From positions 372,001-436,000 of the forward strand of contig NZ_MQVV01000016.1 in assembly GCF_002954355.1 (NCBI RefSeq): a stretch of 64,000 nucleotides of DNA, written 5' to 3'. The position numbers and the translations under genes are program-made. Source of the DNA: Nonlabens tegetincola (lineage in GTDB: Bacteria; Bacteroidota; Bacteroidia; Flavobacteriales; Flavobacteriaceae). Below, one piece after another: positions 2,985 through 61,876 of the stretch (position 1 is its first letter; each line of letters starts with the position of its first letter). The notes under the pieces were generated by a model. It ran no database searches, had not been told where the DNA came from, and worked only from the letters and a program-made list of their open reading frames with translations.

Positions 2985-4487
2985 TTAATTTTTAGGTTTG
3001 ATTACAATCGTTTGAATTGCTTGAGCGTCTACAGTAATTTTAGTTTCGCTTTCGCGAAAGCGAACACCTTCAAAATTCAATTGAAAGTTTATTTTATTCT
3101 CTCCTTCATTAAAAACTACTACCACAATGGATCCATCTGGGTTTTGCGCTGCTGTAGCGATTAAATCTGTATCAGTCCACTTAATATCCAGCACCACTGC
3201 ATCTGGTCTTATGAACCTGCTGAAATGAGTCATTACGTAATAAAGCGGTGTGAAATACACCTCATCACTTTCTGTATCTACTAATACTGGGGCAGCGCAC
3301 CAATTTTTAAACCAGTTAGGACCACCTTGTTTATCTAGAACCATGTTCCAATCTACCCAACCGTCAACCCAATTGTTCAAACATCCAATAATGTCTCGAG
3401 CATAACGGTTTACTGGAGCGTATTTAGGATGCAAATGTTTTTGGTCCTCTGGTGCCCAATCCCAACCCCAATCGGTAGCTTCTTTTTTCCAGTACCAGGC
3501 ATCATTCTTCCATACTGGCACCTCGCTATCAATACATCCTTCTGTTTCGATCAGGTATTTAGTAGGCGCTTTTTCATGCGCATACTGTAATTCCTCTGGA
3601 AAGACTTCATAGGTACTTTCATACCAGTGAATAGCCGTACCATCATAGTATTTAGAACTTTCTTGCGAGGCGTACATTACATCTACCCATTCTCTAATTC
3701 CTGCACGATTTTGGTCATAACCTAGAATGATTTTATCGCCATATCCCTTTTCCTCTAGATGTGGACCTAAATGATGTTGAACAAACTGGGTCATTTCTTC
3801 GGGTGTGTAATGCATGCTTTCCCAATTATCACCATTACCGTGTGGTTCATTTTCTACTGTGAAACCCCAGATAGGAATTCCTTTTTTTTCATATTCTTCT
3901 ACGTACTTTGAAAAAAATAATGCCCACGTATCATAATATTCTGGCAGTAGCTTTCCTCCTACCCATTCCTTGTTATCCTTCATCCATGGCGGCGCTGTCC
4001 ATGGTGATGCAAACAATTTAAATCCATCGGGTGAGATTTTCATAGCCTCTTTAATCATGGGGATAATGTCGGCCTCATCCTCTTTAACAGTAAAATGCTG
4101 GAGTTCCAAATCGTCTTCTACGGGAGCATATGAATATTGGGATAAAGAGAAATCACAGCTATTCATGTGCGTTCTATTTAGGGAATAATTTGCACCATCT
4201 GCACTGAAATAGGCTTCTAATACCTCTCGCCGTTTTGATTTACTCAAATTGTTTAATAGATAAGCACTACTTTCAGTAAACGCACCTCCAAATCCAGTAA
4301 TCTTTTGATATGTTTTATCTGGATTAATGTTAATGGTAGAAACACTATCCAACTGTTCAAAAACTTGAACCTGAGAAAGACTGTTACCAGCCGCTGATGT
4401 TTCATACACCGTAATATCAAAGGGTGTTTGCTCTGTACAACTCAACAGGCTACCAATTGTAAGTAAGGAAAGTAAGCTCTTCTTCAT
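2985..4487 (-). CDS. GH30 glycoside hydrolase lipoprotein (laminarin branch-cleaving type)
   Basis: The 500-residue protein begins with a lipoprotein signal (MKKSLLSLLTIGSLLSC, lipid Cys17). The rest is a GH30 TIM barrel with a C-terminal beta domain. The acid/base is Glu214 in VENEPHG and the nucleophile is probably Glu316 in IETEGC, aligned with the EAC motif of glucosylceramidase-type GH30 enzymes. GH30 enzymes of marine flavobacterial laminarin loci remove beta-1,6-linked glucose branches, which fits the GH17 and GH16 neighbours. Its ATG overlaps the stop of the upstream GH17 gene by one base (TAATG), indicating translational coupling. A copy of the chromosomal palindrome lies in frame near the C terminus and encodes RFRES. 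Confidence 0.9.
   Translation of the reverse strand: MKKSLLSLLTIGSLLSCTEQTPFDITVYETSAAGNSLSQVQVFEQLDSVSTININPDKTYQKITGFGGAFTESSAYLLNNLSKSKRREVLEAYFSADGANYSLNRTHMNSCDFSLSQYSYAPVEDDLELQHFTVKEDEADIIPMIKEAMKISPDGFKLFASPWTAPPWMKDNKEWVGGKLLPEYYDTWALFFSKYVEEYEKKGIPIWGFTVENEPHGNGDNWESMHYTPEEMTQFVQHHLGPHLEEKGYGDKIILGYDQNRAGIREWVDVMYASQESSKYYDGTAIHWYESTYEVFPEELQYAHEKAPTKYLIETEGCIDSEVPVWKNDAWYWKKEATDWGWDWAPEDQKHLHPKYAPVNRYARDIIGCLNNWVDGWVDWNMVLDKQGGPNWFKNWCAAPVLVDTESDEVYFTPLYYVMTHFSRFIRPDAVVLDIKWTDTDLIATAAQNPDGSIVVVVFNEGENKINFQLNFEGVRFRESETKITVDAQAIQTIVIKPKN
3047..3062. repeat. Palindrome copy 1 (inside GH30 gene)
   Basis: Perfect 16-base palindrome CGCTTTCGCGAAAGCG inside the GH30 coding sequence. Read in frame it gives VRFRESE near the C terminus. 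The outer TTA/TAA flanks of the intergenic copies are absent. Confidence 0.95.
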
Positions 4488-5749
4488 TATTGTCCTCTTT
4501 TTATTGGTGGTGTACTCACTGATTTAAGCAGGGCAATCTCATCTCCGTTAAAGGTTTTATTGATTGGATTACCATCTCTAGAGAGATTTTTATATAGGTC
4601 TTGATCTACGAGGTCCCACAAAGCATATTTTGCCTGACCGTTTACAGAAAACAATCCGAAGTGATTTTCACTTCCTTGCGGATTTTCAGCGTCTTTCCAC
4701 TTCTCATCAAAAGCCTCAAAATAGAAACAAGTAACCTGATTCTTTATAGACCATTCTCTTATAAGCTTGTAATAAATACCTGCTTTGTATTCATCAACTG
4801 CTTTTGAACCTGTTTTTCCATATAACTCATTAGAGAAACTCGCCCAGCCCGTTTCACCTATATAGACAGGTTTATCTTCACCTATACTCTGTACATAATT
4901 AACCACGCTTTCATACTGATTAATAGCATACTGCAAGGATTGCTGCATAACTATTTCGATTTGCTTTTCTTTAGAAAGTCGCGCTTCATTTTCTTGGACA
5001 CCCCAAAAAACAGGGTTGTAATGCGTGTCATGCATAGGATAAGTATGGATGGAGATAAAATCAACCTCGCGTATCAATTCATTCAAAGCTGGTACATGAT
5101 ATTGTGTATCGCCGCCGCCCCAACTTGCAAAATTATCTGAACTTGTAATCCATAAATTGGTAGGTAGCTGTCCTTGTTTTTTAAGATCCTGGAGATGTTT
5201 TACCCATTTTAAGATAATGTCTGGCTGGACATAATAACTGGTCGCCCATTTAACCATTGCCTCGTTTCCTACTGCGATTATTTTAATAATGTCAGGATAT
5301 TCTTGAGCTAGGGCTACAGCTCTGCCTATCTCGTCTTCATTTTGTTCACTTTCAATATCGTGGTTCACGGGCTTTCCTGTCCACGCATTTTTACAATCGA
5401 TCCATGCTCCTAACATGACATACATTTCAAAATCAGGATTTTCAGCTTTTAGTTGTCTTATTGCCTTCAAAACGTTGGTGGCGTGCGGCAACTGTACATT
5501 ATAGGTGCGAATAAGTCTCACATCCATAGCATTTAAAATTCTTAAATCCTCTTTTATTTGATCGATCGTTGGTTGCTTATCACGAGTCATTTCCCTGTAT
5601 CCACCATAGCACATGGCTTGATAATTTGATTGGGACAACAACTCTTGAGCAGTCATATTCTTATAGGTTTTTAGAGATGGTTCCACGACTTCTTTTTTAC
5701 AACTATTTAATAGAAGTAATAGAAGAAATAATGTCAATGGAATTCTCAT
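4487..5749 (-). CDS. GH17 glucan endo-1,3-beta-glucosidase lipoprotein
   Basis: A 420-residue lipoprotein (signal MRIPLTLFLLLLLLNSC, lipid Cys17) consisting of a single GH17 TIM barrel. The catalytic acid/base is Glu163 in IAVGNEAM and the nucleophile Glu299 in YIGETGWAS. GH17 enzymes cleave internal beta-1,3-glucosidic bonds; as a lipoprotein this one acts in the periplasm or at the cell surface on laminarin pieces. It is coupled to the GH30 gene by a TAATG overlap. The 58-base gap upstream, toward the phosphorylase gene, is mostly occupied by a 24-base copy of the chromosomal palindrome. It is the second GH17 catalytic domain in the locus; the other is fused to the symporter. Confidence 0.92.
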   Translation of the reverse strand: MRIPLTLFLLLLLLNSCKKEVVEPSLKTYKNMTAQELLSQSNYQAMCYGGYREMTRDKQPTIDQIKEDLRILNAMDVRLIRTYNVQLPHATNVLKAIRQLKAENPDFEMYVMLGAWIDCKNAWTGKPVNHDIESEQNEDEIGRAVALAQEYPDIIKIIAVGNEAMVKWATSYYVQPDIILKWVKHLQDLKKQGQLPTNLWITSSDNFASWGGGDTQYHVPALNELIREVDFISIHTYPMHDTHYNPVFWGVQENEARLSKEKQIEIVMQQSLQYAINQYESVVNYVQSIGEDKPVYIGETGWASFSNELYGKTGSKAVDEYKAGIYYKLIREWSIKNQVTCFYFEAFDEKWKDAENPQGSENHFGLFSVNGQAKYALWDLVDQDLYKNLSRDGNPINKTFNGDEIALLKSVSTPPIKRGQ

Positions 5750-5776
5750 TTTTTATTTATCATTTTTAGGTTATTG

Positions 5777-5800
5777 TTTACGCTTTCGCGAAAGCGTAAA
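5777..5800. repeat. Palindrome copy 2 (intergenic, 24-base form)
   Basis: The core CGCTTTCGCGAAAGCG at 5781-5796 is flanked by TTTA and TAAA, giving a perfect 24-base palindrome in the gap between the phosphorylase and GH17 genes. On the transcribed minus strand no T-run follows it, so it does not look like an intrinsic terminator. Confidence 0.95.
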
Positions 5801-5807
5801 AACTATT

Positions 5808-8800
5808 CTATTTTAAATCTTCAAATACATGTACTTCTATCATCTTCACGAGCCCTGATCGTTTAAAAATCTCACGACTGTGCTGTGCCGTAAGTTGTCT
5901 TTCACCTTGCTCAATAACATTACCATCAGACAGGTGTAGACGAATGATATTTTCTTTACTCTTGTGGTAAATTACTGGTACTTGACAGTAGGTAAATGCG
6001 AGAGAATTTTTAGATATAGCTATAGATTGTGCCTCTTGATTTACATCTAAATATTTAAATTCTGTACTTGAGGTGAGAAATTCGGCAGCTCTTAACAATT
6101 TTGGTTCAAATTGAATTTTACCATCTGTCACGATGATACCTAACTCTCCTATTCTACAAAGTATATCTTCTTTTACTTGACCAGTCATCCCTGGTTGCTG
6201 AGCTCCTTTTGTTGCAGGTGTGTGAGAATACGGATCTGTAGGGAAAGCACCATATAATTGCGGTGTTTTATGAACTCCAATTCCTGCTTGAACTTCATAG
6301 TAATGATCTAGTAAAAAGCCTATAGTTTTAGGATCTATGTTTTCTTTTATGGCTGCTAAAACAGTTTCTTGAATAGCTAATAATAGCTTAGAAACCATAT
6401 GCCAATAAATCGATCCTAAACCTTCATAACCAAAGAAGGTTCCCGATCTACCAGTAAATTCTTTATGATTAAACACTTCTTCAAAAATTTCCTCTAGTAA
6501 AGAAGACTCTTGATGTATCAACGGTGCATAGCTTTCATCTAATTCTTTAATTGAATTTCGAAGGCTATCGACATTATTAAATTGACCGCTAAAGTGATAA
6601 TCTCCAATTACATCCTGAGTAATGATTTGCTTGTTATTATTTTCTACTAGTTTTTGAAGTAATTGAGAAGATTCAACTAGATGTTTTGGAATAATGTTCT
6701 TATCAGTAAAACCTTTAAGCTCTTTGTTGGGATATAGTATATAGCTGTATTGATCTACACGGAATAAAGAACTTTGTTTTAAGGCGTTTAGTACATCAAG
6801 TGACTTATGGGCATTCAAATATCCAGAGCTGAGCACTGCCACCTGACCTTCTAACATTTCTGATAAATAAGAAATTTCTATTTCATCACCCTTTATAGTC
6901 ATCAAGTTATAGGCGTGGTATAAATTATCCTTACGCTTATTTGCTACGATACTATGATCTAAATATTTGAGTGAGATTTGTACAAATCTCTTTACCGTAT
7001 CGGTTTTTACCTCAGTTTTATTACCTGAAAATCTTTGGTTATAAATTAAATGACGGTACTCACTTGCTGCGATACCTAATTCATCAAGTATTGATTTCCT
7101 TGTCTTATTATCAATAGCTCCGTTAAGAACTTTCTCATAATTGTTTAATGTGGTAAGCAGTGACTCGAAATAAACGACAAATTCTTGCGAAAAAGAATAT
7201 GTAGCTTCTTCTGATTGATCTAGTATTTTATGAGTGAAGTTCAAAAACCTACGCAAGTAATAGAGAGTTACCATGCTTACACCATTACCTACTAGAGCAT
7301 TATTTGCATCATTCCATTCTGGTCGTTGGGTATTTAACCATATTCCAGCTTCAGGAATGAAGTTTGACATTTTGGCCAGAACAGTTGCAAGTAATTTTTC
7401 TAAGAAATTAACCTTATAAATGGTTTCGTTTTGGCTTTTTAATAAAGCTCCATCTACTCCTATTTCTAATCTTTGATTCTCTATATACTCTTGTGCCTTA
7501 TGATCAAAATCAATCGTATCCTTAGGGTTATTACAAATGTCTTGATAAGGTTTGATAACATAAGGTACGTTGGCGTACACGAATAATTCCTGAGAGAAAT
7601 AACTGATTAATTCTCCTGGGTGATAATTTTCTTGAAACTCTAAAAATTTAAGTAAGTATATGATTTGATGATCGCCCCAATACCCTATGTAAGACCATGG
7701 ATCATCTTCTTCAATCGTTTCCCAATCAAATCCTCCTTTTGTTACTCGGTAAGGATTATAACCGTCAAACGTAGTGGCATTTAAAAATTTATGAATCATT
7801 CCTTCCATAAACTCAGGATAACTGTGTGCAAGCGCTTCCCAATTCTGGAAAATATCTCGCCAGTTACCTTGATAGTCAAGAATCTTTGACCCATCTACTT
7901 CATCACGAGTATTGATTGAAAATTTATTCCATGGACGACTAGGGTCTCCATGTCTTCTACTGAATTTTAAAGGTAAATATTCTAAACACAGTCGTTTTAA
8001 ATCTATATCGCTGGATACATCTACAAAGTGTTGTAAATCAAATAAGGTAAAAACACTAGGTAATTTCTCTATTTGCTCCTTTAGTGAAGCATAAACCTGT
8101 TTATTCGCTTCCTCCAGGTAACTTTTAAAATCAAGTTTTTCAATGTTATAACCTTCATCAAAGATTCCACCACGCATGATGTTAAACATGGTATTTGCAA
8201 AATGTCTATTATTGATTAATGGGTCCTCAGTTAACTGTATTCCGTCACTTGCGGCGGTTAAAGCTATAAGTTGTTCAGTTCCTTTTTCAATTGAGGCAAG
8301 AATGTTTTGATACAGGTTTTTATCAGATTCAATTTGTTGTGCAATTTCATGAACATCACCTATGGTTTTATCTACATCAGCAATAAACATCCATTCTTTG
8401 GATTCATTTGCTTCAAGATCAATGAAACTACCATTAAAATAGGCACCTTTTTCTGCCTTAATATCATACTCATTGAATAGACTTTTCCCTTTTCTAAAAT
8501 CGTTGACTTGTCTATTAGAAAGTAAATAAGTTGCATTATCCAGTCCTAGAGACCAACATATGTTTGCCATCAACGATTCACTAGGCTCCGCCTTATCTAC
8601 GATTACAGCACTAAGAGTAAGTAATCCTATACCTGAACCTGCATGTAGCTCAGACCTTTTGTATGCATCAACTAGATTGCTAGATGCTTTTTGTAAATCC
8701 TCTCCTACATTTGCTGGTAATAAATCCTGTAATCCATCAAGAATTTCACATTGTATTGCTGTTTCATTATGATTGAGTAGCTCTGATATTCTTACAAAAC

Positions 8801-9257
8801 CAAATTGATCTGATGAGTTCCAGCTATACTTAATGGTAAGCTTAAGATCATGATTAATTTCCTCAAACAGTACTTTATTACCGTATTTATTTTTATAAAG
8901 ATTTCTGGTAGTCTTGTATATACCTTCATACCTATCAGAAAATGGTTCCCACAGGTAGGTTTCATTCTCAATTGTGGCTTTTATGATCGTTTTACTGCCT
9001 GTAGAATCAGCATTTCTGGTTATTTTATCATCTGTATAGTATGGAAACAAGGCGTGATCGCTATTCTTACGACCAGCTGTTAAACCTCCATTACTAGATA
9101 TAAACATCCAGTGATTGTAAGCGCTCACAATACTCATAAAGAATGGACGCATCGCATCTACATTACTAATTTTGTAGTAACTCTCACCTTTTATATCAAC
9201 AAGACTTCCCTTAACTTCCTTTTCTTTAAAAGAAATATTTTGACTTCCTAACTTCAT
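5808..9257 (-). CDS. Large cytoplasmic beta-1,3-oligoglucan phosphorylase (GH149-like)
   Basis: The 1149-residue protein has no signal peptide (MKLGSQNISFKEK), so it should act in the cytosol. Length and overall character fit the GH149/GH161 phosphorylases related to GH94, which split beta-1,3-gluco-oligosaccharides with phosphate to give glucose 1-phosphate. Aromatic-rich blocks such as DPWSYIGYWGDHQIIYLLKF near residues 515-535 and PEWNDANNALVG near 645-655 look like the (alpha/alpha)6 catalytic core; the Asp of WNDANN, about residue 648, is my candidate general acid. Its position among GH16, GH17 and GH30 genes and a sugar symporter supports a role on imported laminari-oligosaccharides. 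GH161 is the main alternative; the exact family needs a profile search. Confidence 0.72.
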   Translation of the reverse strand: MKLGSQNISFKEKEVKGSLVDIKGESYYKISNVDAMRPFFMSIVSAYNHWMFISSNGGLTAGRKNSDHALFPYYTDDKITRNADSTGSKTIIKATIENETYLWEPFSDRYEGIYKTTRNLYKNKYGNKVLFEEINHDLKLTIKYSWNSSDQFGFVRISELLNHNETAIQCEILDGLQDLLPANVGEDLQKASSNLVDAYKRSELHAGSGIGLLTLSAVIVDKAEPSESLMANICWSLGLDNATYLLSNRQVNDFRKGKSLFNEYDIKAEKGAYFNGSFIDLEANESKEWMFIADVDKTIGDVHEIAQQIESDKNLYQNILASIEKGTEQLIALTAASDGIQLTEDPLINNRHFANTMFNIMRGGIFDEGYNIEKLDFKSYLEEANKQVYASLKEQIEKLPSVFTLFDLQHFVDVSSDIDLKRLCLEYLPLKFSRRHGDPSRPWNKFSINTRDEVDGSKILDYQGNWRDIFQNWEALAHSYPEFMEGMIHKFLNATTFDGYNPYRVTKGGFDWETIEEDDPWSYIGYWGDHQIIYLLKFLEFQENYHPGELISYFSQELFVYANVPYVIKPYQDICNNPKDTIDFDHKAQEYIENQRLEIGVDGALLKSQNETIYKVNFLEKLLATVLAKMSNFIPEAGIWLNTQRPEWNDANNALVGNGVSMVTLYYLRRFLNFTHKILDQSEEATYSFSQEFVVYFESLLTTLNNYEKVLNGAIDNKTRKSILDELGIAASEYRHLIYNQRFSGNKTEVKTDTVKRFVQISLKYLDHSIVANKRKDNLYHAYNLMTIKGDEIEISYLSEMLEGQVAVLSSGYLNAHKSLDVLNALKQSSLFRVDQYSYILYPNKELKGFTDKNIIPKHLVESSQLLQKLVENNNKQIITQDVIGDYHFSGQFNNVDSLRNSIKELDESYAPLIHQESSLLEEIFEEVFNHKEFTGRSGTFFGYEGLGSIYWHMVSKLLLAIQETVLAAIKENIDPKTIGFLLDHYYEVQAGIGVHKTPQLYGAFPTDPYSHTPATKGAQQPGMTGQVKEDILCRIGELGIIVTDGKIQFEPKLLRAAEFLTSSTEFKYLDVNQEAQSIAISKNSLAFTYCQVPVIYHKSKENIIRLHLSDGNVIEQGERQLTAQHSREIFKRSGLVKMIEVHVFEDLK

Positions 9258-9335
9258 TAACTAAATAATAATCAATATTTTACAAAAAACATTTTGGAAC
9301 AATCGGCATGTAATCGTCCTAGTAGCTTCATATTG

Positions 9336-9357
9336 TTACGCTTTCGCGAAAGCGTAA
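9336..9357. repeat. Palindrome copy 3 (intergenic, 22-base form)
   Basis: The core CGCTTTCGCGAAAGCG at 9339-9354 has TTA and TAA flanks, making a perfect 22-base palindrome. It sits in the 147-base gap between the GH16 gene and the phosphorylase gene, both on the minus strand. Confidence 0.95.
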
Positions 9358-9404
9358 AAACAAAAACTATCCTGCTTGAATTAAAAATTTATATTTCCTA
9401 CTTG

Positions 9405-10226: not shown

Positions 10227-10238
10227 AATTTGATCTTC

Positions 10239-12167: not shown

Positions 12168-12170
12168 TTT

Positions 12171-15353: not shown

Positions 15354-15388
15354 GTAAAATAATTTGGTTATGAATTGAAAACGATTTC

Positions 15389-15423
15389 GTAAACGCTGTC
15401 ATTAACAAACCGATAACGTTTAC
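15389..15423. promoter_or_regulatory. Spaced inverted repeat, probable operator of the glucan locus
   Basis: GTAAACGCTGTC at 15389-15400 and GATAACGTTTAC at 15412-15423 are inverted repeats with 10 of 12 positions matching, separated by 11 bases. The centre lies about 53 bases upstream of the first glucan-locus gene (start 15353), between it and the LuxR-type regulator gene. The symmetry and place suit a dimeric transcription factor; which protein binds is not shown. Confidence 0.55.
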
Positions 15424-15503
15424 ATCGATAAATGTAAAAGTTGTTTTAAAAAAACAAAAGAAAATCACCTTTACTAAAATGCAACAAACATGCAATTGAA
15501 GAG

Positions 15504-15525
15504 TTACGCTTTCGCGAAAGCGTAA
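15504..15525. repeat. Palindrome copy 4 (intergenic, 22-base form)
   Basis: Core CGCTTTCGCGAAAGCG at 15507-15522 with TTA/TAA flanks, between the regulator gene and the first glucan-locus gene. It lies about 80 bases upstream of the inverted-repeat operator candidate. Confidence 0.95.
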
Positions 15526-15641
15526 AAAATACTATCTGATTTATTTTCAAACATTTAAAATATCACAGGCTGATAAAATTTGTGTATTTATAGATTTCTG
15601 TATAGGTAATGTTGTATTAAAATTACAGCAGATAGTATAAT

Positions 15642-19316: not shown

Positions 19317-19338
19317 TTACGCTTTCGCGAAAGCGTAA
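19317..19338. repeat. Palindrome copy 5 (intergenic, 22-base form)
   Basis: Core CGCTTTCGCGAAAGCG at 19320-19335 with TTA/TAA flanks. It lies in the gap between the divergent exonuclease gene (minus) and the small secreted-protein gene (plus). Confidence 0.95.
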
Positions 19339-26297: not shown

Positions 26298-27263
26298 TTG
26301 GATTTAGAAAATAAAGCTCTTGAAGCTGCAAAAAGAACAGTAAGCATTGAGGCACAAGCTGTTAATAATTTAATAAATAGTATTGATTCCGCTTTCGCGA
26401 AAGCGGTATTATCCATACATAATTCAAACGGTAGGGTCATCATTACTGGAATAGGTAAAAGCGCTATAATCGCGCAAAAAATGGTAGCTACCATGAACAG
26501 TACTGGGACACCAGCTATTTTCATGCATGCCGCTGATGCTATACACGGTGACCTAGGAATTATACAGAAAAATGATGTTGTTGTGTGCCTATCAAAAAGT
26601 GGTAACACTCCAGAAATAAAAGTACTTGTTCCACTAATAAAGGATTTTGGCAACCTCTTGATAGCAATTACTAGTCATAAAGATTCCTTTTTAGGTAAGG
26701 AAGCAGACTTTATACTACATGCTCCTATTGAGGAAGAGGCTTGTCCCAACGGCCTTGCTCCTACTACCAGTACAACTGCTCAACTAGTTATAGGTGATGC
26801 TCTTGCGGTAAGTCTGCTAGAATTAAAAGGGTTTAGTGATAAGGATTTTGCAAAATATCATCCAGGTGGCGCTTTAGGTAAAAAACTTTATTTAAGGGTT
26901 GATGATCTTGTTTCTCAAAATAAAAAGCCAGAAGTATCTGCAACCACTAGTTTACGTGAAGTGATCATTAATATTTCAGAAAACATGCTAGGGATGACGG
27001 TTGTGACTAGTGAGTCCAAGGCTATAGGTGTTATTACTGATGGAGATTTAAGAAGAATGCTCACTAGTGGTCGTAATATAGACGATTTACAAGCTCACGA
27101 TATAATGAGCGATCACCCTAAAACTATCGATACAGATGCGATGGCAGTTGAGGCTCGAGAAACTATGGAGGAATACAACATTTCTCAACTAGTAGCTACC
27201 AATAACGGTGAGTACGCAGGTGTTGTTCATATTCATGATTTAATAAGAGAAGGTATCTTATAA
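26298..27263 (+). CDS. kdsD: D-arabinose-5-phosphate isomerase
   Basis: A 321-residue KpsF/GutQ-type protein: a SIS sugar-isomerase domain (about 35-170, with ITGIGKSAIIAQKM, STGTPAIFMHAADAIHGDLG and CLSKSGNTPE) followed by a pair of CBS domains (about 205-320). It converts ribulose 5-phosphate to arabinose 5-phosphate, the first step to KDO of lipopolysaccharide; kdsA lies 13.6 kb further on. The start must be TTG at 26298, because the stop at 26283 and the absence of ATG leave no better choice. A palindrome copy is in frame near residues 31-36 and encodes SAFAKA, in a helix where other family members align without a gap. tatC follows after one base. Confidence 0.93.
   Translation: MDLENKALEAAKRTVSIEAQAVNNLINSIDSAFAKAVLSIHNSNGRVIITGIGKSAIIAQKMVATMNSTGTPAIFMHAADAIHGDLGIIQKNDVVVCLSKSGNTPEIKVLVPLIKDFGNLLIAITSHKDSFLGKEADFILHAPIEEEACPNGLAPTTSTTAQLVIGDALAVSLLELKGFSDKDFAKYHPGGALGKKLYLRVDDLVSQNKKPEVSATTSLREVIINISENMLGMTVVTSESKAIGVITDGDLRRMLTSGRNIDDLQAHDIMSDHPKTIDTDAMAVEARETMEEYNISQLVATNNGEYAGVVHIHDLIREGIL
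26389..26406. repeat. Palindrome copy 6 (inside kdsD)
   Basis: A perfect 18-base palindrome: the 16-base core at 26390-26405 with C and G added. In frame it reads SAFAKAV; the base triplet after the core is GTA, not TAA. Confidence 0.95.
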
Positions 27264-31217: not shown

Positions 31218-31233
31218 CGCTTTCGCGAAAGCG
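31218..31233. repeat. Palindrome copy 7 (intergenic)
   Basis: Perfect 16-base core in the gap between typA and the rhodopsin gene. One flank keeps TAA; the other is ACT, so the longer palindrome is broken on one side. Confidence 0.95.
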
Positions 31234-36405: not shown

Positions 36406-36963
36406 ATGAAAAAAGCTTTTGTAATCGCTCTAGTAGTCTTTGGTTCCGCTTTCGCGAAAGCGCAATCACCATCCTACCAAGCTCTCGTAATGGAATATTT
36501 TGAAGTAGGTGGAATTGATGAAGAATATAATCAAGCTTATGATATGATGCTCAATCAAATTAAGGATGCTTTTCAATCACAATCGGTTCCTGAAAGTTTC
36601 TGGAAAAAACATCAAAACAACAAGAAGGAAAGTGTAGCCCAATTTAAGGGAATACTAGCGGCAGAGTATCGTAGTATTATCACAGAAAAATATGACCTAG
36701 AGCAACTGATTAAATTTTATAAATCCGAAGCGGGAATTCAATTGCGTGAAAATCCAGCTGCCATGACTGAGGAACAAAAGGCAGCCTATGCCAAATATCT
36801 AGAAAGCAGTACTGCGCAAAAAATTAACGAGATACAAGGTGATCTATCGGCTGCAAAACAAAGGACAAGCATGTACTGGTCTAGAAATTTGTTTTGCAGT
36901 ATCATAAGTGAGTTAAAGGAACTGGGATATAACTCTGGAATGCCTACCGGGAATTGCAATTAA
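36406..36963 (+). CDS. Secreted DUF2059-like protein
   Basis: A 185-residue exported protein. The signal peptide is MKKAFVIALVVFGSAFAKAQ with the cleavage motif Ala17-Lys18-Ala19. The mature part is helical with YDLEQLIKFYKSEAGIQLRENPAAMTEEQ, the pattern of the DUF2059 family (growth until residues near the end form a helical bundle). Two Cys near the C terminus may pair. A copy of the chromosomal palindrome encodes the last part of the signal peptide, including the cleavage motif. The stop shares a base with the start of the next gene (TAATG), so the two are coupled. Confidence 0.85.
   Translation: MKKAFVIALVVFGSAFAKAQSPSYQALVMEYFEVGGIDEEYNQAYDMMLNQIKDAFQSQSVPESFWKKHQNNKKESVAQFKGILAAEYRSIITEKYDLEQLIKFYKSEAGIQLRENPAAMTEEQKAAYAKYLESSTAQKINEIQGDLSAAKQRTSMYWSRNLFCSIISELKELGYNSGMPTGNCN
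36447..36462. repeat. Palindrome copy 8 (inside a signal peptide)
   Basis: Perfect 16-base core in frame, reading SAFAKAQ. The codon after the core is CAA (Gln), one base from the TAA of intergenic copies. It supplies the A-K-A signal peptidase site of the DUF2059-like protein. Confidence 0.95.
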
Positions 36964-38753: not shown

Positions 38754-40166
38754 ATGATATTGGAACAATATTATACAAAATGCCTAGCTCAAGGAACTTA
38801 TTACATTTCCAGTAATGGCGAGGCTGCGGTAATAGATCCACTACGTGAGGTACAACCTTACATTGATAGAGCTGCTCAAGAAGGAGCTACCATTAAATAT
38901 ATATTTCTTACTCATTTTCATGCAGACTTTGTATCTGGTCATGTAGATCTAGCAGATAAAACTGGTGCCACGATTGTTATCGGTCCTAATGCCAGTACTA
39001 GTTACGCTTTCGCGAAAGCGGAACACCAACAAAGTTTTTCTATCGGTGACATTACACTTACCTTGTTACACACTCCTGGACACACCATGGAGTCCTCTTG
39101 TTATTTATTAAAAGATGAAACAGGTAAAGCAGAGGCAATATTTACAGGAGACACACTTTTTATAGGCGATGTAGGTCGTCCTGATCTTGCAGTGAAATCA
39201 GATCTAAGCACAGAAGATCTTGCTGGTCATTTATATGATAGTCTACGCAATCACATCATGCCCTTACCAGATGATATCATCATTTATCCTGCTCATGGTG
39301 CTGGTAGTGCTTGTGGTAAGAATATGAGTAAAGAAACTAGCGATACTTTAGGGAATCAAAAGAAAACTAATTATGCTCTTAATCCTGATTTAACTAAAGA
39401 GGATTTTATCAAAGAAGTAACTACAGGAATTGCTGCACCGCCTTCTTATTTCCCTAAAAACGTGTGGATGAACAAGGGTGTGAACAGCAGTATTGACGAG
39501 ATATTAAAAAGAGGAATTACACCTATTAATGCAAAATCTTTTAAAGCGCTCGCAGACGATGTAGAATATCTAGTACTTGATGTACGCAGTCCACAAGAAT
39601 TTACCAAAGAACACATACCTGGAAGTTGGTTCATAGGTCTAGATGGACAATTTGCCCCATGGGTAGGAGCTTTAATAGAAGATATTGATCAAAAAATTAT
39701 TCTAGTCGCACCTGAAGGTCGAGAAGAAGAAGCAGTGACTAGACTAGCGCGAGTAGGTTACGACAACTCTCAGGGCTATCTTAAAGGAGGAATTAGTAGT
39801 TGGAAAACTGCCGGATATTCTATTTCAAGCATTGAAGATATTACAGCTCAAGAATTTATCGATGGGCTAGAGTCTGGAATGATTGAACAACCACTAGATT
39901 GTCGTAAACCTGGTGAATATGAAAGCAGTCATGTCAATGGAGTACCTTTACATGCTCTGGATAACGTTCATTCCGAATTGAAACATTTGGATAATACTAA
40001 AGTGTATACAGTTCATTGCGCTGGTGGATATAGGTCAGTGATTTTTGCCAGTATTGCTCAATCACAAGGCTTTAAGTTTAAAAATGTATTAGGTGGTTAT
40101 GGAGCCATCAAAAAAACTGAATTAAAAAATCAAGAATTGGTCACTACTAGTTCTTGTAATATATAA
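38754..40166 (+). CDS. MBL-fold persulfide dioxygenase-like protein with two rhodanese domains
   Basis: A 470-residue protein. Residues about 1-240 form a metallo-beta-lactamase fold of the ETHE1 persulfide dioxygenase type, with THFHADFVSGH (His54, His56, Asp58) and HTPGHTMESSCY. Two rhodanese domains follow. The first (about 270-355, LVLDVRSPQEF) has no catalytic Cys in its loop (VAPEGREEE). The second (about 365-455) has an active-site Cys in VHCAGGYRS. It should oxidise glutathione- or thiol-persulfides to sulfite. It heads an operon with two more rhodanese genes. A palindrome copy lies in frame and reads YAFAKAE. Confidence 0.92.
   Translation: MILEQYYTKCLAQGTYYISSNGEAAVIDPLREVQPYIDRAAQEGATIKYIFLTHFHADFVSGHVDLADKTGATIVIGPNASTSYAFAKAEHQQSFSIGDITLTLLHTPGHTMESSCYLLKDETGKAEAIFTGDTLFIGDVGRPDLAVKSDLSTEDLAGHLYDSLRNHIMPLPDDIIIYPAHGAGSACGKNMSKETSDTLGNQKKTNYALNPDLTKEDFIKEVTTGIAAPPSYFPKNVWMNKGVNSSIDEILKRGITPINAKSFKALADDVEYLVLDVRSPQEFTKEHIPGSWFIGLDGQFAPWVGALIEDIDQKIILVAPEGREEEAVTRLARVGYDNSQGYLKGGISSWKTAGYSISSIEDITAQEFIDGLESGMIEQPLDCRKPGEYESSHVNGVPLHALDNVHSELKHLDNTKVYTVHCAGGYRSVIFASIAQSQGFKFKNVLGGYGAIKKTELKNQELVTTSSCNI
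39005..39020. repeat. Palindrome copy 9 (inside the persulfide dioxygenase gene)
   Basis: Perfect 16-base core reading YAFAKAE. The left flank keeps the full TTA; on the right TAA has become GAA by one base, which removes an in-frame stop. Confidence 0.95.
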
Positions 40167-44427: not shown

Positions 44428-44784
44428 TTATCTATTCAGTCTAAGATTTTGTAATTCTATCAAGGTTTCTAACAACACTTTATTGTCCATATCGTCTATA
44501 GAAAAATACCTCAACGACCTCATACGCTTACGCCCTTCACCAGCAACCAATTTATTGTGTTTATTGGATAATTCACTTCCATATGCGAGTCCTAGGTCCA
44601 CATATTTCCTTCTAAAATTTATATAACAAAACATGATATTTCCCTTTAGGTAATAAAAAGGTAAACTCCATTTATATTTTAGAACGGCATCTGGGAAATT
44701 TGAACTTATCAATACGTGTAAGTCCATCATAATATGATTGAAAGGTTCTGGAGCTTTGTAGATATAATCTTCTGCCGGATTCAT
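44428..44784 (-). CDS. DUF1801-like small protein
   Basis: A 118-residue cytosolic protein with YIYKAPEPFNHIMMDLHVLI, the KWSLPFYYLKGNIMFCYI strands and DLGLAYGSEL, the pattern of the DUF1801/YdhG-like fold. The function is unknown. It lies 22 bases upstream of the GH25 gene, likely co-transcribed. A 24-base copy of the palindrome is 19 bases upstream of the start. Confidence 0.82.
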   Translation of the reverse strand: MNPAEDYIYKAPEPFNHIMMDLHVLISSNFPDAVLKYKWSLPFYYLKGNIMFCYINFRRKYVDLGLAYGSELSNKHNKLVAGEGRKRMRSLRYFSIDDMDNKVLLETLIELQNLRLNR

Positions 44785-44802
44785 GTGGTTAATTTAGTGG
44801 TT

Positions 44803-44826
44803 ATTACGCTTTCGCGAAAGCGTAAT
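44803..44826. repeat. Palindrome copy 10 (intergenic, 24-base form)
   Basis: The core at 44807-44822 is flanked by ATTA and TAAT, making a perfect 24-base palindrome in the 75-base gap between two divergent genes. Confidence 0.95.
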
Positions 44827-44859
44827 TTCGTAAATTTAAGCTCTGACTAAAATAAAATT

Positions 44860-51336: not shown

Positions 51337-52093
51337 ATATTCTAGTAAATTAATTCTAGTTCTTAGTATTTTAAGTTTGTTTATGCTCATGGTTCGTATT
51401 AAGGTAACCACGAGTTTCTATGGTTTGTTTATGGTATGGAATTTATTTCTAGCCATTATTCCTTTACTTATCATAAGGATCACCACAACCTTTCAAAAAA
51501 GCACATTTATCCAAATGGTTTTTTGGTTACAGACCAATTCTATTTTTTATAGGATTAATGATGATAAATCACGCTTTCGCGAAAGCGAACTCTACTTTCC
51601 TACTCCAAAATCCTCAACGACTTCTACATATACTAAACGAGCTATTGTTGTAGGGTTTTTAATGGTATGGTTATTATTTCTACCCAATGCGCCTTATATG
51701 GTTACAGATATGATTCATATTTCTAACTCGCAGGATATGTGGTTACATTATGATATTGTGAATTATGGTTTGTTTGGATGGTGTGGTCTTGTCATATTTT
51801 GTAATGGATTGTTTGAGGTTAATGCATTGATTAAAAGAGAATGGGATTGCCATCCTTTACTATTTCCTGTAATCACTATCACTTTAATCGTACTTTGCTC
51901 GCTGGGTATTTATTTAGGTAGAGAATTAAGATTTAATAGTTGGGATTTACTTACTTCACCTTATGAATTATTCATCGACATTATCGATACTATAAGTTCG
52001 CTTACACATAACATAGCGTTGCTATCCCAATTGGTCGCCTATATGGTACTTCTTAGTATAAGTCTTATCATGTACAGTAACTATGCAAAATAA
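51329..52093 (+). CDS. DUF1361 membrane protein
   Basis: About 254 residues, with six or seven helices and the DUF1361 signature VWLLFLPNAPYMVTDMIH followed by HYDIVNYGLFGWCG. A soluble loop of about 45 residues (near 72-117) lies before this, and a palindrome copy lies inside it, reading SRFRESE. I chose ATG 51329 (MHKYSSKLIL), overlapping the previous gene by 8 bases; ATG 51308 is possible. Function unknown. The end overlaps the DUF2809 gene by 11 bases. Confidence 0.82.
   Translation: MHKYSSKLILVLSILSLFMLMVRIKVTTSFYGLFMVWNLFLAIIPLLIIRITTTFQKSTFIQMVFWLQTNSIFYRINDDKSRFRESELYFPTPKSSTTSTYTKRAIVVGFLMVWLLFLPNAPYMVTDMIHISNSQDMWLHYDIVNYGLFGWCGLVIFCNGLFEVNALIKREWDCHPLLFPVITITLIVLCSLGIYLGRELRFNSWDLLTSPYELFIDIIDTISSLTHNIALLSQLVAYMVLLSISLIMYSNYAK
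51572..51587. repeat. Palindrome copy 11 (inside the DUF1361 gene)
   Basis: Perfect 16-base core in frame, reading SRFRESEL in a predicted soluble loop between membrane helices. Confidence 0.95.
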
Positions 52094-52788: not shown

Positions 52789-53205
52789 TTGAAGCATCGT
52801 ATCGTATTTCAAGATCAAACTGCTAGAAAGTATGTCGCTTTCACCTCTATAGGAATAATTCTTATAGTTGCTGGTGTGCTTTTACTGTTCACAAGTTTAG
52901 AAGAATACGTAGCGTACTTGGGTATAGGAATAGGGATAGCCCTGTTTTTTTATATAAACATGAACTCTTTTCGCAGTACACATTTCATTTCATACAACCG
53001 AAAAGGAATAACTTTACAGTTACTAGGTAGAAAAACAAACGGTTTTAGCTTTAACCAGTTACAAAAAGTATCTCTTGAAGAAAAAGGGCTGCTTATAAAA
53101 TTAAAAGGTGGTGAGGTTATTACGCTTTCGCGAAAGCGATACCTAGAACAATCTCTACAACAATTATTTACAATTTTAAAGACAAAAACATCATCCCATG
53201 AGTGA
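52789..53205 (+). CDS. Membrane protein of unknown function
   Basis: A 138-residue protein with two membrane helices (about 17-34 and 41-57) followed by a soluble beta-rich C terminus (SYNRKGITLQLLGRKTNGF, LEEKGLLIKLKGGEVITLS), like a short PH-type domain. No family named. The start is TTG at 52789, one base after the upstream stop. The palindrome lies near the C terminus and reads ITLSRKRY. It overlaps ettA by 8 bases. Confidence 0.75.
   Translation: MKHRIVFQDQTARKYVAFTSIGIILIVAGVLLLFTSLEEYVAYLGIGIGIALFFYINMNSFRSTHFISYNRKGITLQLLGRKTNGFSFNQLQKVSLEEKGLLIKLKGGEVITLSRKRYLEQSLQQLFTILKTKTSSHE
53123..53138. repeat. Palindrome copy 12 (inside a membrane protein gene)
   Basis: Perfect 16-base core in frame, reading TLSRKR, the third possible frame. 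The left TTA flank is present, the right one is ATA. Confidence 0.95.
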
Positions 53206-56423: not shown

Positions 56424-57502
56424 TATCCTATTTCGTCTCCGTATTTATTAATTGCACTTTGGCGGATTTGTTTAATCTCCTGCTCAGCTGTTTTTGGTAT
56501 TATCATGAGTACATCATCCTCGTCAACAACTATATAGTTTTCCAGTCCTTGAATGATTACCTTTTTATTAGTATCAGTTTTTATGATGTTGTTACTTGAA
56601 TTTATAGCGGTTACACTAGAATTAACTATAGCATTATTGTCGCTGTTTTTCTCGAGTTTGTCATATAACGAACCCCATGTCCCTAAATCATTCCAACTGA
56701 AATGTGCAGGAATCACGTTTACGTGATTACTTTTCTCTAGTATCGCATAATCAACTGATATATTTTCAGCTTTTTGATAGTTTTCTTCTAACCATTCGTT
56801 TTCATGGGTTGTGTTGTAAACCTCATAACCGTTTTTAAATAATGTGGTTAATGCAGGTTGCGCTTTCGCGAAAGCGGAAACGACACCATCAACGTGCCAG
56901 ATAAAAATACCGGCATTCCATAAAAAAGTACCTTTTGCCAAAAATTCTTTAGCTGTTTCAAGATTAGGCTTTTCTCTAAACTGCTTTACCTTTTTTACTT
57001 GATTAGATGAAGGTTCAAATTCAATATAACCATAACCTGTATTAGGCGATGTAGGAGTGATTCCCAATGTCATTAGGTCATGATGATTTTGTGAGCAGTG
57101 ATCAAAAGCCGTTTCTAAATTCTCATTAAATAAATGTTCTTCTTCAATATAATGATCACTAGGAGCCACGATCATTGTAGCATCGGGATTCATTTTTTGA
57201 ATTTTGAGAGCTGCTAGTAAAATACATGGTGCAGTATTACGCATAGCAGGCTCTGCCACGATATGTGTATCCTGCATGAGCGGTAACTGTTTTTTAACCA
57301 ATTCTACATAGTCTGCATTGGTTAAAACTAAAATATTGTCTACAGGAATAGTAGTGCATAATCTATCATAAGTCATTTGTAACAAAGACTTACCAATTCC
57401 CAGCATGTCGTGGAATTGTTTAGGAAATTTTTGTTTGCTTACTGGCCAAAATCGGGATCCTACTCCACCGGCCATAATAACGGCGTACCTGTTCTTACTC
57501 AT
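56423..57502 (-). CDS. manC: Mannose-1-phosphate guanylyltransferase
   Basis: A 359-residue nucleotidyltransferase with MAGGVGSRFWPVSKQKFPKQF at the start (the activation loop), VAPSDHYI near 110, and the QFREKPN motif near 168. It makes GDP-mannose from GTP and mannose 1-phosphate for surface sugars. It is the short form, without the isomerase domain. It lies between a SprT-like gene (8-base overlap) and the DUF389 gene (1-base overlap). A palindrome copy reads SAFAKAQ near residues 209-215. Confidence 0.94.
   Translation of the reverse strand: MSKNRYAVIMAGGVGSRFWPVSKQKFPKQFHDMLGIGKSLLQMTYDRLCTTIPVDNILVLTNADYVELVKKQLPLMQDTHIVAEPAMRNTAPCILLAALKIQKMNPDATMIVAPSDHYIEEEHLFNENLETAFDHCSQNHHDLMTLGITPTSPNTGYGYIEFEPSSNQVKKVKQFREKPNLETAKEFLAKGTFLWNAGIFIWHVDGVVSAFAKAQPALTTLFKNGYEVYNTTHENEWLEENYQKAENISVDYAILEKSNHVNVIPAHFSWNDLGTWGSLYDKLEKNSDNNAIVNSSVTAINSSNNIIKTDTNKKVIIQGLENYIVVDEDDVLMIIPKTAEQEIKQIRQSAINKYGDEIG
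56861..56876. repeat. Palindrome copy 13 (inside manC)
   Basis: Perfect 16-base core in frame on the minus strand, reading SAFAKAQ. The codon after the core is CAA, as in copy 8. Confidence 0.95.
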
Positions 57503-58097: not shown

Positions 58098-58191
58098 TTC
58101 ATTTACTTTGAAACGTGAAGATAAAAAGACTTATTTTTTTAAATAACCTATTATATAAACATGTATTAACAATTATGTGAATAGTTGTGAT

Positions 58192-58199: not shown

Positions 58200-58220
58200 T
58201 TTTGTAATAAATAATAGAAC

Positions 58221-58910: not shown

Positions 58911-58933
58911 TATCTTAGACTAAGCACTTTTGT

Positions 58934-58980
58934 AATCATCACAAAAATCAACTTAGAAATAGGTGATTTTTGTGATGATT
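58934..58980 (+). terminator. Terminator after the LOG-family gene
   Basis: A perfect 17-bp stem (58934-58950 with 58964-58980; arm starts AATCATCACAAAAATCA) and a 13-base loop, followed by TTTT. Confidence 0.88.
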
Positions 58981-58997
58981 TTTTAATATTTAAACAT

Positions 58998-59005
58998 CAT
59001 ATTTG
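58998..59005 (+). promoter_or_regulatory. Possible -7 element of the M1-like gene
   Basis: CATATTTG matches seven of eight positions of TAnnTTTG. It covers the first possible TTG start (59003) and thus favours the TTG at 59030 as the true start. Confidence 0.4.
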
Positions 59006-59029
59006 AAAGTAAACTCTAAAAAAGCACCT

Positions 59030-61876
59030 TTGAAAACAAGATTTCTTGTATTTCTCACTTTACTATTGTCCATTTATGGCTGGTCGCAGCATCAAACTAA
59101 CCTTGTGGTTAAGCTTGATGATGATGCTAGGGAATTGACCATTGAACAAGAAATAACTTTCGATAATACAAGTGATATCTCTTGGGATAAAGTGTATTTA
59201 TTAGATTGGGCTAATGCCTTCAGTAACTTACAGACTCCTTTAGCTATAAGACTAGCTGAGGATTTTAAAAATCGGTTTGAATTTTCATCTGATGAGGATA
59301 AAGGCTTTTCAGATATTTCTAGTCTAAATACTGAAAACTATTTTGTAAGCAGACCAAAATCTAATCCAGACGTTGTTATTTTAGAATTATTGGAGCCCAT
59401 CACACCACAAACTTCACGCAGTGTAAACATAACTTACAAGGTAAAAATTCCGCTTGATGATTTTACTGGCTATGGAAAGAGTAGCGATAACGAATATCTA
59501 CTCAAATATTGGTACCTGCATCCTGCGCCATTTGTAAATGGAGAATGGCAGTTTTATTCTCATAAAGATTTAAATGATTTTTATGGCGCACCTACCCAGA
59601 TGAGCATTTCAGTTCATGTTCCTTCTCGTCTCAAGGCTATATCTTCATTAAAAATGATTACCCAAGTTGAGCAGGAAAATCGTAACAGCTATCTATTTGA
59701 AGGTTTAACAAGCTCTAGTGCTAGGTTATACTTCCTAGAATCAACCGACGGTTTTAAACGTTATAGCACTAATCAAGTAGATTTAACCACTGATATTGAT
59801 GATGAAAGTGTTCCCACTGAAATGAAAGTGGTTTTTATAGATAGAATAGCTAGTTTTTTAAATGATCATGTAGGTAAATCTCCAAATAGGGAACTCTTCA
59901 TCTCAGATAAATTTTACAAAGAAAATCCTGTGTATGGCTTAAGCTCTTTACCTAGTTTTATTAACCCATTTCCAGCAGGTTTTACCTATGAAATAAAAAT
60001 GCTCAAAGCACTTACTCGTAAATGGGTAGAACAAGGAATAAGTACTCACAATAGAGATGAATACTGGTTAAAACAAGGTATAATAATCCATACCATAATG
60101 AAATACCAGGAACAATATTACCCAGATTTAAAAATTGGTGGTAAACTAAGTGATTTTTGGGGAATACGAGGATTCAATGTTTCACAACTAAGGTTTAATG
60201 ACAGGTATGCCTTTTTATACTTGAATACAAAAAGACTTAATCTAGATCAAGCACCCAATACTCCTGCTGATAGTTTATTGAAATACAATCAACAACTCGC
60301 CATTCCTTTTAAAGCTGCAATCGGACTAGCATATCTTGACGACTATCTAGGTAATAATGCCGTTGAAAATTCGATTAAAAAGCTCTATAGTCAATCACCG
60401 TCAAATTCACAAAATAGTCGGGATTTTCAAAAATATTTGAACGAACAAACAGATAAAGAAATTGATTGGTTTTTTAATTACTTTATAACTCGTCACGAAA
60501 GGCTAGATTGGAAAATAAGGAACATAGAGAAATACAAAGATTCAGTAATTGTAACGATTAAGAATAAGAGCGTTTATCCTATCCCTATTCCTATCTACGC
60601 ACTCAAAAATGATAGTATTGTTTATAAAGAATGGATTAATGGATTTATAGGTGATACTTCTATTACGCTTTCGCGAAAAGCGATACAAAACAAGAAATTA
60701 GGTGCCGCCAATAGAATTGTACTTAACTATGAGGAAATAATTCCTGAATTTAACCCAAGAGATAACTATAAAACTCTAAAACCATTTCCTGCATTTAATA
60801 GGCCCTTGGAATTTAGGCTATTCAAGGACATTGAAGACCCTGAAAAATCTCAAGTTTTCTTGATGCCAGATATTACATTTAATATATACGATGGATTGGC
60901 TATAGGTTCTAGATTTTACAATGGTAATTTACTGTCAAAACCTTTTAGATATAGCATTAAACCTGCCTACGGGACAAACTCAGGCAAATTAGTGGGATCG
61001 ATAGGATTAAGCTATGAGCATCCATTTCAAGATAGAAACAACAGCCTTTTTTCTATGAGATACGGACTAAGTGCCAATCAATTTTCTTATGCTCCAGATT
61101 TACTTTATAGACGAGGAAGCGCGTGGTTAAGTTTTAATTACAGACCTAAAGACTTGCGTAGTAATAAAAGACAAAGCCTTAATTTTAGAAACGTATTTGT
61201 TCAACGAGATCGCAATGATGAATCTCTTGAAGAAGATCCTGATTATAATGTTTTTGCATTGAGTTTCAATCAATCAGACCGTAACCTTAGAAGATCTTTT
61301 AGTTATAGTTTTGGCACCGAGATTAGTGAACGTTTTTCAAAAGCAAGTTTCAGATTAGACTGGCGCAGACTCTATAAGGATAATAGACAGCTCAATTTTA
61401 GAGTATTCATGGGAACTTTTCTATATAACGATACAAGATCCAATGATGATTTTTTCTCCTTTGCCCTAGATAGACCTACGGATTATCTTTTTGATTATAA
61501 CTATTATGGTAGATCTGAAGATGACGGTCTATTCTCGCAACAATTAATTCTTGCCGAAGGTGGATTCAAAGCTCAATTGGATCCAGCATTTGCAAACCAG
61601 TGGATTACCACCCTAAATTCATCGTACAGTATATGGAAATACATATTTGTTTATGGTGATGTAGGAGCTGTTAAAAACAAGGGTACAAGCGCAAGATTTG
61701 TATATGACACTGGGATTAGATTAAACCTATTGCAAGATTATTTTGAGTTGTATTTTCCTGTGTACAACAATAATGGATGGGAGATCGCGCAACCTAATTA
61801 TGATGAGAAAATAAGGTTCATAGTAACGCTAGATGTTAACACTTTTATAGGGCTATTTACTCGTAGGTGGTACTAA
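59030..61876 (+). CDS. Degenerate M1-peptidase-like protein with C-terminal outer-membrane barrel
   Basis: About 948 residues from TTG 59030 (MKTRFLVFLTLLLSIYGWSQ, a good signal peptide; TTG 59003 would add nine residues). Residues up to about 510 follow the M1 aminopeptidase layout, but the usual HExxH is replaced by LTRKWVEQG and the WLNEG-type Glu region reads WLKQGIIIHT, so it should not bind catalytic zinc. From about residue 590 the sequence becomes alternating barrel strands (FRYSIKPAYG, LSFNQSDRNLRRSFSYSFG) and ends FTRRWY, with an aromatic last residue as in outer-membrane barrels. A surface or periplasmic binding role is likely, not catalysis. An imperfect palindrome copy reads ITLSRKAI. 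Confidence 0.8.
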   Translation: MKTRFLVFLTLLLSIYGWSQHQTNLVVKLDDDARELTIEQEITFDNTSDISWDKVYLLDWANAFSNLQTPLAIRLAEDFKNRFEFSSDEDKGFSDISSLNTENYFVSRPKSNPDVVILELLEPITPQTSRSVNITYKVKIPLDDFTGYGKSSDNEYLLKYWYLHPAPFVNGEWQFYSHKDLNDFYGAPTQMSISVHVPSRLKAISSLKMITQVEQENRNSYLFEGLTSSSARLYFLESTDGFKRYSTNQVDLTTDIDDESVPTEMKVVFIDRIASFLNDHVGKSPNRELFISDKFYKENPVYGLSSLPSFINPFPAGFTYEIKMLKALTRKWVEQGISTHNRDEYWLKQGIIIHTIMKYQEQYYPDLKIGGKLSDFWGIRGFNVSQLRFNDRYAFLYLNTKRLNLDQAPNTPADSLLKYNQQLAIPFKAAIGLAYLDDYLGNNAVENSIKKLYSQSPSNSQNSRDFQKYLNEQTDKEIDWFFNYFITRHERLDWKIRNIEKYKDSVIVTIKNKSVYPIPIPIYALKNDSIVYKEWINGFIGDTSITLSRKAIQNKKLGAANRIVLNYEEIIPEFNPRDNYKTLKPFPAFNRPLEFRLFKDIEDPEKSQVFLMPDITFNIYDGLAIGSRFYNGNLLSKPFRYSIKPAYGTNSGKLVGSIGLSYEHPFQDRNNSLFSMRYGLSANQFSYAPDLLYRRGSAWLSFNYRPKDLRSNKRQSLNFRNVFVQRDRNDESLEEDPDYNVFALSFNQSDRNLRRSFSYSFGTEISERFSKASFRLDWRRLYKDNRQLNFRVFMGTFLYNDTRSNDDFFSFALDRPTDYLFDYNYYGRSEDDGLFSQQLILAEGGFKAQLDPAFANQWITTLNSSYSIWKYIFVYGDVGAVKNKGTSARFVYDTGIRLNLLQDYFELYFPVYNNNGWEIAQPNYDEKIRFIVTLDVNTFIGLFTRRWY
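60666..60682. repeat. Palindrome copy 14 (imperfect, inside the M1-like gene)
   Basis: The 16-base core with one extra A in the right arm (CGCTTTCGCGAAAAGCG). It keeps the left TTA flank and reads TLSRKA in frame. Confidence 0.85.

Follow-up and report, generated by a model that had tools for sequence, protein, structure and literature searches.

The window, by which we mean the whole 64-kb stretch of DNA analysed here, lies on contig 16 of the 3,028,293-bp genome of Nonlabens tegetincola, and gene maps throughout this study are mechanical open reading frames (ORFs). Positions 633-18410 carry probable beta-glucan utilisation genes, with matches to a GPH-type sugar symporter, an endo-1,6-beta-glucanase-like protein, a GH149 1,3-beta-glucan phosphorylase and a beta-glucanase-like protein, of which GH149 alone exceeded the curated cut-off. 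A bacteriorhodopsin-like gene (PF01036) at 31317-32045 adjoins typA, with one palindrome between the two. The palindrome is the 16-mer CGCTTTCGCGAAAGCG, and the first-pass annotation had reported 13 perfect copies of it in the window together with one copy containing an inserted base. All 13 were found where they had been placed (Table 1), and the fourteenth, at 60666, reads CGCTTTCGCGAAAAGCG, with one A extra. Elsewhere in the window there was no match with up to three mismatches beyond these copies. We write the 16-bp palindromic core as (C)GCTTTCGCGAAAGC(G); variation of the core is found mostly at the outermost base and then, less so, at the third T.

Table 1. Copies of the palindromic core in the window and one example of the whole element
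Feature	Position	Strand	Context
Exact core	3047..3062	.	Inside ORF, frame RFRES
Exact core	5781..5796	.	Intergenic
Exact core	9339..9354	.	Intergenic
Exact core	15507..15522	.	Intergenic
Exact core	19320..19335	.	Intergenic, divergent ORFs; exact at aligned place in G010 and G242
Exact core	26390..26405	.	Near start of SIS/CBS-domain ORF
Exact core	31218..31233	.	Intergenic, upstream of typA/bipA gene
Exact core	36447..36462	.	AFAKA frame; signal-peptide-like stretch (by eye)
Exact core	39005..39020	.	Metallo-beta-lactamase/rhodanese gene; exact in 6 other Nonlabens sequences
Exact core	44807..44822	.	Intergenic, divergent ORFs
Exact core	51572..51587	.	Inside ORF, frame RFRES
Exact core	53123..53138	.	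Inside ORF, frame LSRKR
Exact core	56861..56876	.	Inside nucleotidyltransferase gene, AFAKA frame
Variant core, one A inserted	60666..60682	.	Inside ORF 59003-61876
Whole element, example	44777..44852	.	Core 44807-44822 plus 30 bases per side

Chance occurrence was rejected, as had been anticipated: 100 dinucleotide shuffles of the window yielded 0.03 matches on average and at most one, and the whole genome contains 464 exact copies (600 with up to one mismatch) against 0 for a reversed control. The motif is thus far above background genome-wide and is not confined to the 64 kb. Six of the 13 exact copies in the window lie between ORFs and seven inside, with the status of the 26390 copy turning on the choice of start codon, since it is near the start of its ORF. 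The excess of intergenic copies claimed for the window was also seen on a larger scale: in four Nonlabens genomes (G000, which is the genome of the window, G397, G394 and G242), 66 of 192 exact copies were intergenic, compared with 12% of the DNA outside ORFs. The remaining 126 copies are read as AFAKA (79), RFRES (32) or LSRKR (15). Among the AFAKA copies, 22 of 79 fall within the first 100 nt of the ORF, many of these in stretches that resemble, by eye, the end of a signal peptide. A general terminator function was rejected on the basis of the 126 copies within ORFs and of the orientation of the genes around the 66 intergenic sites (39 co-directional, 16 divergent and 11 convergent). We also looked for a comparable iterated palindrome in 76 named loci (3-22 kb), the 20 stretches from other genomes described below and 30 typA loci (∼4.8 kb, two from the genus), using a cut of three palindromic 10-, 12- or 14-mers, which has little power in short loci; only the present motif appeared.

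The element occurs once per 4-5 kb around the chromosome. Over ∼460 kb of contig 10 of its own genome, exact copies had a mean gap of 5.6 kb and a CV of 0.51, compared with 0.98 for random positions; the smallest gap was 1,835 bp and none of 20,000 simulations was as even. When copies with up to two mismatches were counted over 400 kb of this genome, the mean gap between the 91 sites was 4,389 bp and the CV 0.45, with only three gaps below 1.5 kb versus 25.8 expected, none above 10 kb and again none of 20,000 simulations as even. The CV was 0.41 in G394 (19 sites), 0.38 in G242 (18 sites) and 0.50 in G190 (16 sites, one gap of 288 bp), the last being one of two motif-rich genomes outside the genus. 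By CV, exact copies alone were no more evenly placed than random positions in C1 of the other such genome, G206 (0.97), or among those listed in the first 450 kb of G397 (0.89). Spacing in G206 became even once variants were counted (CV 0.59 and 0.57 for 67 and 68 sites), and in the listed part of G397 only short gaps were depleted (three below 1.5 kb versus 20.0).

The density of exact copies in 20 samples of 20 kb along G397 was 2, 1, 0, 4, 3, 5, 4, 7, 4, 4, 6, 4, 6, 5, 5, 5, 5, 5, 5 and 4, without a clear trend; the first three samples are low, yet listed copies are dense over most of that part. In G190, where copies with up to two mismatches were counted, each 20 kb had 1-6, likewise without a clear trend. 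No large-scale polarity was obvious in this coarse sampling of G397 and G190, in which the position of the origin was not located. One G397 sample (L144, G397:C4:300001-320000) contains a Wadjet system, with JetD and partner domains, and has no exact copy; two copies with two mismatches lie outside the Wadjet genes. Of all gaps that separate listed exact copies in the first 450 kb of G397, the longest (297970-332468) is the one that holds this system.

The palindrome is flanked on both sides by arms of ∼20-30 bases in which, reading outward, G is scarce and A and C are abundant. In 406 arms from five Nonlabens genomes, G made up 1-11% at positions +3 to +17, compared with a background of ∼17-20%, and C made up 19-39%, with the composition back to background near +35; this bias was established on pooled sites and not on the single copy 44777..44852. 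It is present in intergenic (132) as well as genic (252) arms of four genomes. The same bias was found in 270 arms of G206, while 180 arms of G190 showed it weakly (G 0.17 versus 0.24). On the strand that enters the core in the 5′ to 3′ direction, from either side, TGT, GTG, TTG, GGG, GTT, GGT and TGG are enriched 1.8- to 2.4-fold. Within a site, neither arm is an inverted repeat of the other, and paired arms show no correlation in their G counts (0.03). Complementarity between arms gave z values of 1.7 at +1-3, 0.0 at +4-10, 0.7 at +11-20 and -1.2 at +21-30, and at intergenic sites only +1-3 was elevated (z 2.5). An extended hairpin or cruciform was rejected since the arms are not complementary beyond composition. 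With 0, 1 and 2 mismatches in the core, the G fraction of the arms was 0.067, 0.096 and 0.122 in Nonlabens (193, 45 and 15 sites) and 0.065, 0.077 and 0.115 in G206; in G190 it did not change steadily (0.161, 0.192 and 0.176). The weaker arms of imperfect cores in Nonlabens and G206 suggest that core and arms function as a single unit.

The element is strongly conserved within Nonlabens. With motif copies masked before alignment, the exact site was kept in 62 of 68 comparisons below 85% DNA identity, with one near site and five without a site, and in 16 of 16 at or above 85%; these are counts of species pairs and not of independent events, so that one old site is counted several times. In unmasked alignments, ordinary 16-mers were identical in only 843 of 43,127 windows below 85% identity (1.95%). 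Where the site was absent, the aligned span was still 16 bases (five of five comparisons, four distinct sites), so that sites are gained or lost by substitution. In the metallo-beta-lactamase gene, the exact 16-mer encodes AFAKA in the window and in all four named Nonlabens loci that were fetched; 76 of 76 other Bacteroidota loci have other peptides at this place (EAHIA, DAHIA and similar), and none has a gap there. Sites thus arise and vanish in place by point substitution, even where this alters a protein, and not by insertion. Turnover is seen between typA and the next shared site, where G394 and G242 each have a site that the other lacks, 1.4-1.7 kb apart. In the same region, ∼8 kb found only in G242 bears its own one-mismatch copy.

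The four named loci nearest to one protein of the window are all Nonlabens (76-79% identity), and on this basis the genus was taken as Nonlabens. Each of the 23 genomes examined in it has 362-897 copies when one mismatch is allowed. Across the family, at least one exact copy was present in 48 of 397 sampled genomes: four of the genus, including that of the window, have 448-579, G206 has 630, G190 has 153 and the 42 others have 1-13. The 12-mer core CTTTCGCGAAAG occurs 580-685 times in the genus, 917 times in G206, 445 times in G190 and at most 21 times in every other sampled genome of the family. Among 296 sampled genomes of the order, none except that of N. tegetincola had more than two exact copies. 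In one open-access collection searched for TTTCGCGAAA, no flavobacterial paper was found, as judged by titles. To examine copies outside the genus, 20 stretches from 16 other genomes were inspected, chosen mostly for clustered copies. Sixteen of these stretches (L162-L177, Flavobacteriaceae) have long blocks of similar DNA in common, reaching 99.9% identity across 14-20 kb in different genera. Among their scanned proteins are CusA/CzcA efflux proteins, ATPases for copper and for zinc/cadmium, and an efflux adaptor; they probably represent a horizontally shared metal-resistance region. Their palindromes are also flanked by arms. The 12-mer core was absent from the Nonlabens phages P12024S and P12024L (70.7 kb; 35.7 and 35.0 kb). 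In IMG/VR the 16-mer was found in 41 stretches of 30 contigs, of which some have a high GC content and are probably not related; the pooled viral copies have weak arms. Among 20 proteins scanned from three contigs, one contig has an integrase and another has head, tail-sheath and baseplate genes. Three phage-like contigs (L202, L219 and L187) have several palindromes each.

The restriction of the element to two lineages was examined with TypA. In a tree of 34 rows, Nonlabens and the pair G206 and G190 are separated among motif-less genera, so that two changes are needed, and one change sufficed in 0% of 200 bootstrap trees; this claim is drawn from a single protein, and the 28 motif-less rows are genomes with the TypA nearest that of the window. 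A single gain followed by repeated loss is a possible account of the same distribution. We also compared individual sites between the lineages, allowing up to two mismatches and searching within 12 bases, which left few rows (6, 5 and 2). Six Nonlabens sites could be aligned in G206 or G190, of which three have a site there and three do not, and the exact position is common in only two of the six comparisons. In the reverse direction three of five were shared, partly the same pairs, and between G206 and G190 one of two. One shared site is in pta, encoding phosphate acetyltransferase (L147 5700-7799 in G397, with counterparts L295 and L296). The G397 protein is 84% identical to that of G206 and 80% to that of G190, with the exact site in all three, and 64-66% identical to those of five matching motif-less relatives, all without the site; at E 1e-100 the gene found no match in three other Nonlabens. 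The shared site here looks to have come by gene transfer. The shared copy in sucA is displaced by 9 bases, and the third, in a short glyoxalase-like gene whose history is uncertain, sits exactly in place. Since sharing of a site in a vertically inherited gene is not demonstrated by these small numbers, the comparison leans toward separate build-up of the element in the two lineages. Recent gene exchange, pta apart, was not evident, because the best identity among 113 protein pairs was 88% (without a motif-less control). The first-pass annotation had noted neither the regular spacing and the G-poor arms nor the confinement to two lineages and the strength of conservation.

Candidate partner proteins were sought by protein family. 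Exactly one PF02195 match, a ParB-domain protein, was found in each of six motif-bearing genomes, and therefore these genomes contain no Noc-like paralog; a second ParB or Noc as partner was rejected. All 17 genomes tested, including 11 that lack the motif, had PF12705 matches, which were assigned to the AddB and AddA types by size. The pair in the N. tegetincola genome (G000:C10:164170 and 521166) is ∼357 kb apart; in G206, G190 and others the distance is ∼5 kb. No match to PF00145 was found in G242 and G190, and none to PF01555 in G000, G394, G242 and G206. G242 thus has 685 copies of the core yet neither of these two large methylase families, and a shared methylase of PF00145 or PF01555 was rejected.

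We think that the element is the recognition site of a putative sequence-specific DNA-binding factor; a protein-binding site had been proposed in the first-pass annotation and is plausible. Even spacing, the lack of orientation and the missing long gaps suggest selection for coverage, that is, for a site on any several-kb stretch, and the putative factor would have the task of locating one or more sites on every DNA a few kb in length. Coverage functions of this kind would include DNA uptake, the control of resection, chromosome architecture and methyl-directed repair. Two further proposals of the first-pass annotation did not hold up well. A spreading microelement, inserted like a REP or MITE, would account for the high number of near-identical copies and, as in REP/BIME and MITE repeats, for their intergenic enrichment, but is extremely improbable given that 126 of 192 copies lie inside ORFs and that empty sites keep their 16-base span with gapless orthologues outside Nonlabens; an insertion element was rejected since empty sites are not shorter in aligned relatives. 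A methylase target would have to be longer than type II methylase sites, which fall short of the 14-16-bp core. Elhai's model, under which a HIP-like element would be the by-product of a cognate methyltransferase working with methyl-directed mismatch repair, is in our view very unlikely to apply. The abundance is indeed HIP-like and the sequence different, as had been remarked, and this now applies genome-wide: like HIP1 and the alternate HIPs of cyanobacteria, the element is a GC-rich, taxon-limited palindrome that occurs in and between genes, and its outermost base varies most, as described for HIP1 (PMC4390886). Elhai's model, as presented there, predicts saturation of density, but it does not predict G-poor arms. 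HIP1 is 8 bp long and occurs about once per kb in the same account (PMC4390886), whereas the present element has a longer core every 4-5 kb, arms, even spacing and no shared methylase of the two families. The perfect palindrome and the evenness argue for an intracellular dimer. As a chromosome-architecture site, it would be bound by a dimeric nucleoid protein that contacts the arms and sets even loops or anchors the chromosome. Short and long gaps are both missing in the N. tegetincola genome, no large-scale polarity is obvious, and in one example a site is absent while another is present 1.4-1.7 kb away. Noc-binding sites, parS, matS and SlmA sites are likewise palindromic or dyad protein sites scattered over the chromosome, but the known sets number tens, compared with 450-900 copies here without visible polarity and with no second ParB-domain protein. 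The distribution in two lineages would be hard to explain if many sites were needed before any benefit, and a compact dimer would leave ∼20 positions of strand-asymmetric composition unexplained; we regard this reading as rather doubtful. That the strands leading into the core are rich in G and T speaks for a machine that reads a strand, such as a resecting nuclease-helicase, which would stop, or meet a protein block, at the palindrome from either side. Known Chi sites, although they too are a genome-wide signal every few kb with an adjacent G/T-rich strand, are short, non-palindromic and oriented. Orientation-free sites every few kb would cap the length of resection, AddB/AddA-type proteins are present (PF12705 proteins occur in motif-less genomes too), and the enriched G/T strand entering the core would favour a stable RecA filament. 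TGG repeats form the most stable RecA filaments in the account of PMC3763553, which at the same time gives no enhanced RecA nucleation on TG-rich DNA, and titles cited there ascribe the GT islands around E. coli Chi to codon usage; against the latter objection, the arms here also occur intergenically. Such a bidirectional Chi-like signal, including this role of the arms, seems unlikely to us.

The reading that we tentatively place ahead of the architecture and Chi-like readings is a DNA-uptake or self-recognition signal, read by a putative competence factor. A surface or periplasmic factor of this kind would bind the core, and the arms would help it to bend or open the DNA. Site-bearing DNA would be preferentially taken up and recombined, and this bias would both accumulate sites and maintain them. 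A second site on the same fragment would bring no gain, and sites would therefore become spaced out. Uptake or another drive-like process would best explain a core with biased flanks established in two lineages: drive requires no earlier sites, which fits the small share of exact positions in common. Consistent with uptake are the hundreds of copies per genome, confined within the sample to two lineages, the turnover of sites through substitutions that alter proteins, the lack of copies in the two Nonlabens phages and the exact site shared by the nearest pta genes of G397, G206 and G190. The DUS of Neisseriaceae and the USS of Pasteurellaceae are also present in hundreds of copies, over-represented, lineage-limited, genic as well as intergenic and built of a core with biased flanks, AT tracts in the case of the Haemophilus USS as described in PMC7811141. 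Some evenness has been reported for them, and Karlin et al., as told in PMC1939737, found significant even spacing of Haemophilus uptake sites. Within the same family, Riemerella columbina favours its own DNA in transformation according to PMC7965970. However, uptake sequences in the account of PMC1939737 are not palindromes and are less even than compaction sites should be, and they are often close together; 23% of H. influenzae USS10 are within 100 bp of another in PMC7811141, whereas here gaps below 1.5 kb are rare. Some phage-like contigs bear sites, the Wadjet stretch of G397 lacks exact copies but has two with two mismatches, which gives no clear depletion in acquired DNA, and exchange between the lineages is apparent at pta only. 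The C/G asymmetry of the arms also has no ready explanation under uptake, the role of which in Nonlabens is putative. A small part of the weight goes to explanations other than those named here.

Among the papers considered for known relatives of the element was PMC7371117. The element would act like a genome-wide recognition sequence, but we assigned it to none of the classes HIP1, DUS, Chi and Noc site, since no class had all of its defining features established here. It could possibly, though we would not expect it, belong to a class of chromosome-wide rulers that would be new, in which a palindrome serves as a stop or loading point between two strand-asymmetric loading strips. A putative DNA machine that translocates or forms filaments would read it, and each of the two flavobacterial lineages would have established it on its own. 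To our knowledge, few systems set hundreds of near-identical sites at regular distances on a bacterial chromosome, and we know of none that joins a long perfect palindrome with strand-asymmetric arms. In the marine bacterium Nonlabens, the element looks like the address label of a putative DNA-handling protein. The close placement of motif-rich and motif-less genera offers a natural comparison for a search for that partner protein. Whichever of the three leading readings holds, whether DNA uptake, global architecture built on specific sites or Chi-like signalling in both directions, it would be a first for Bacteroidota as far as we know, judging by searches of one open-access collection.
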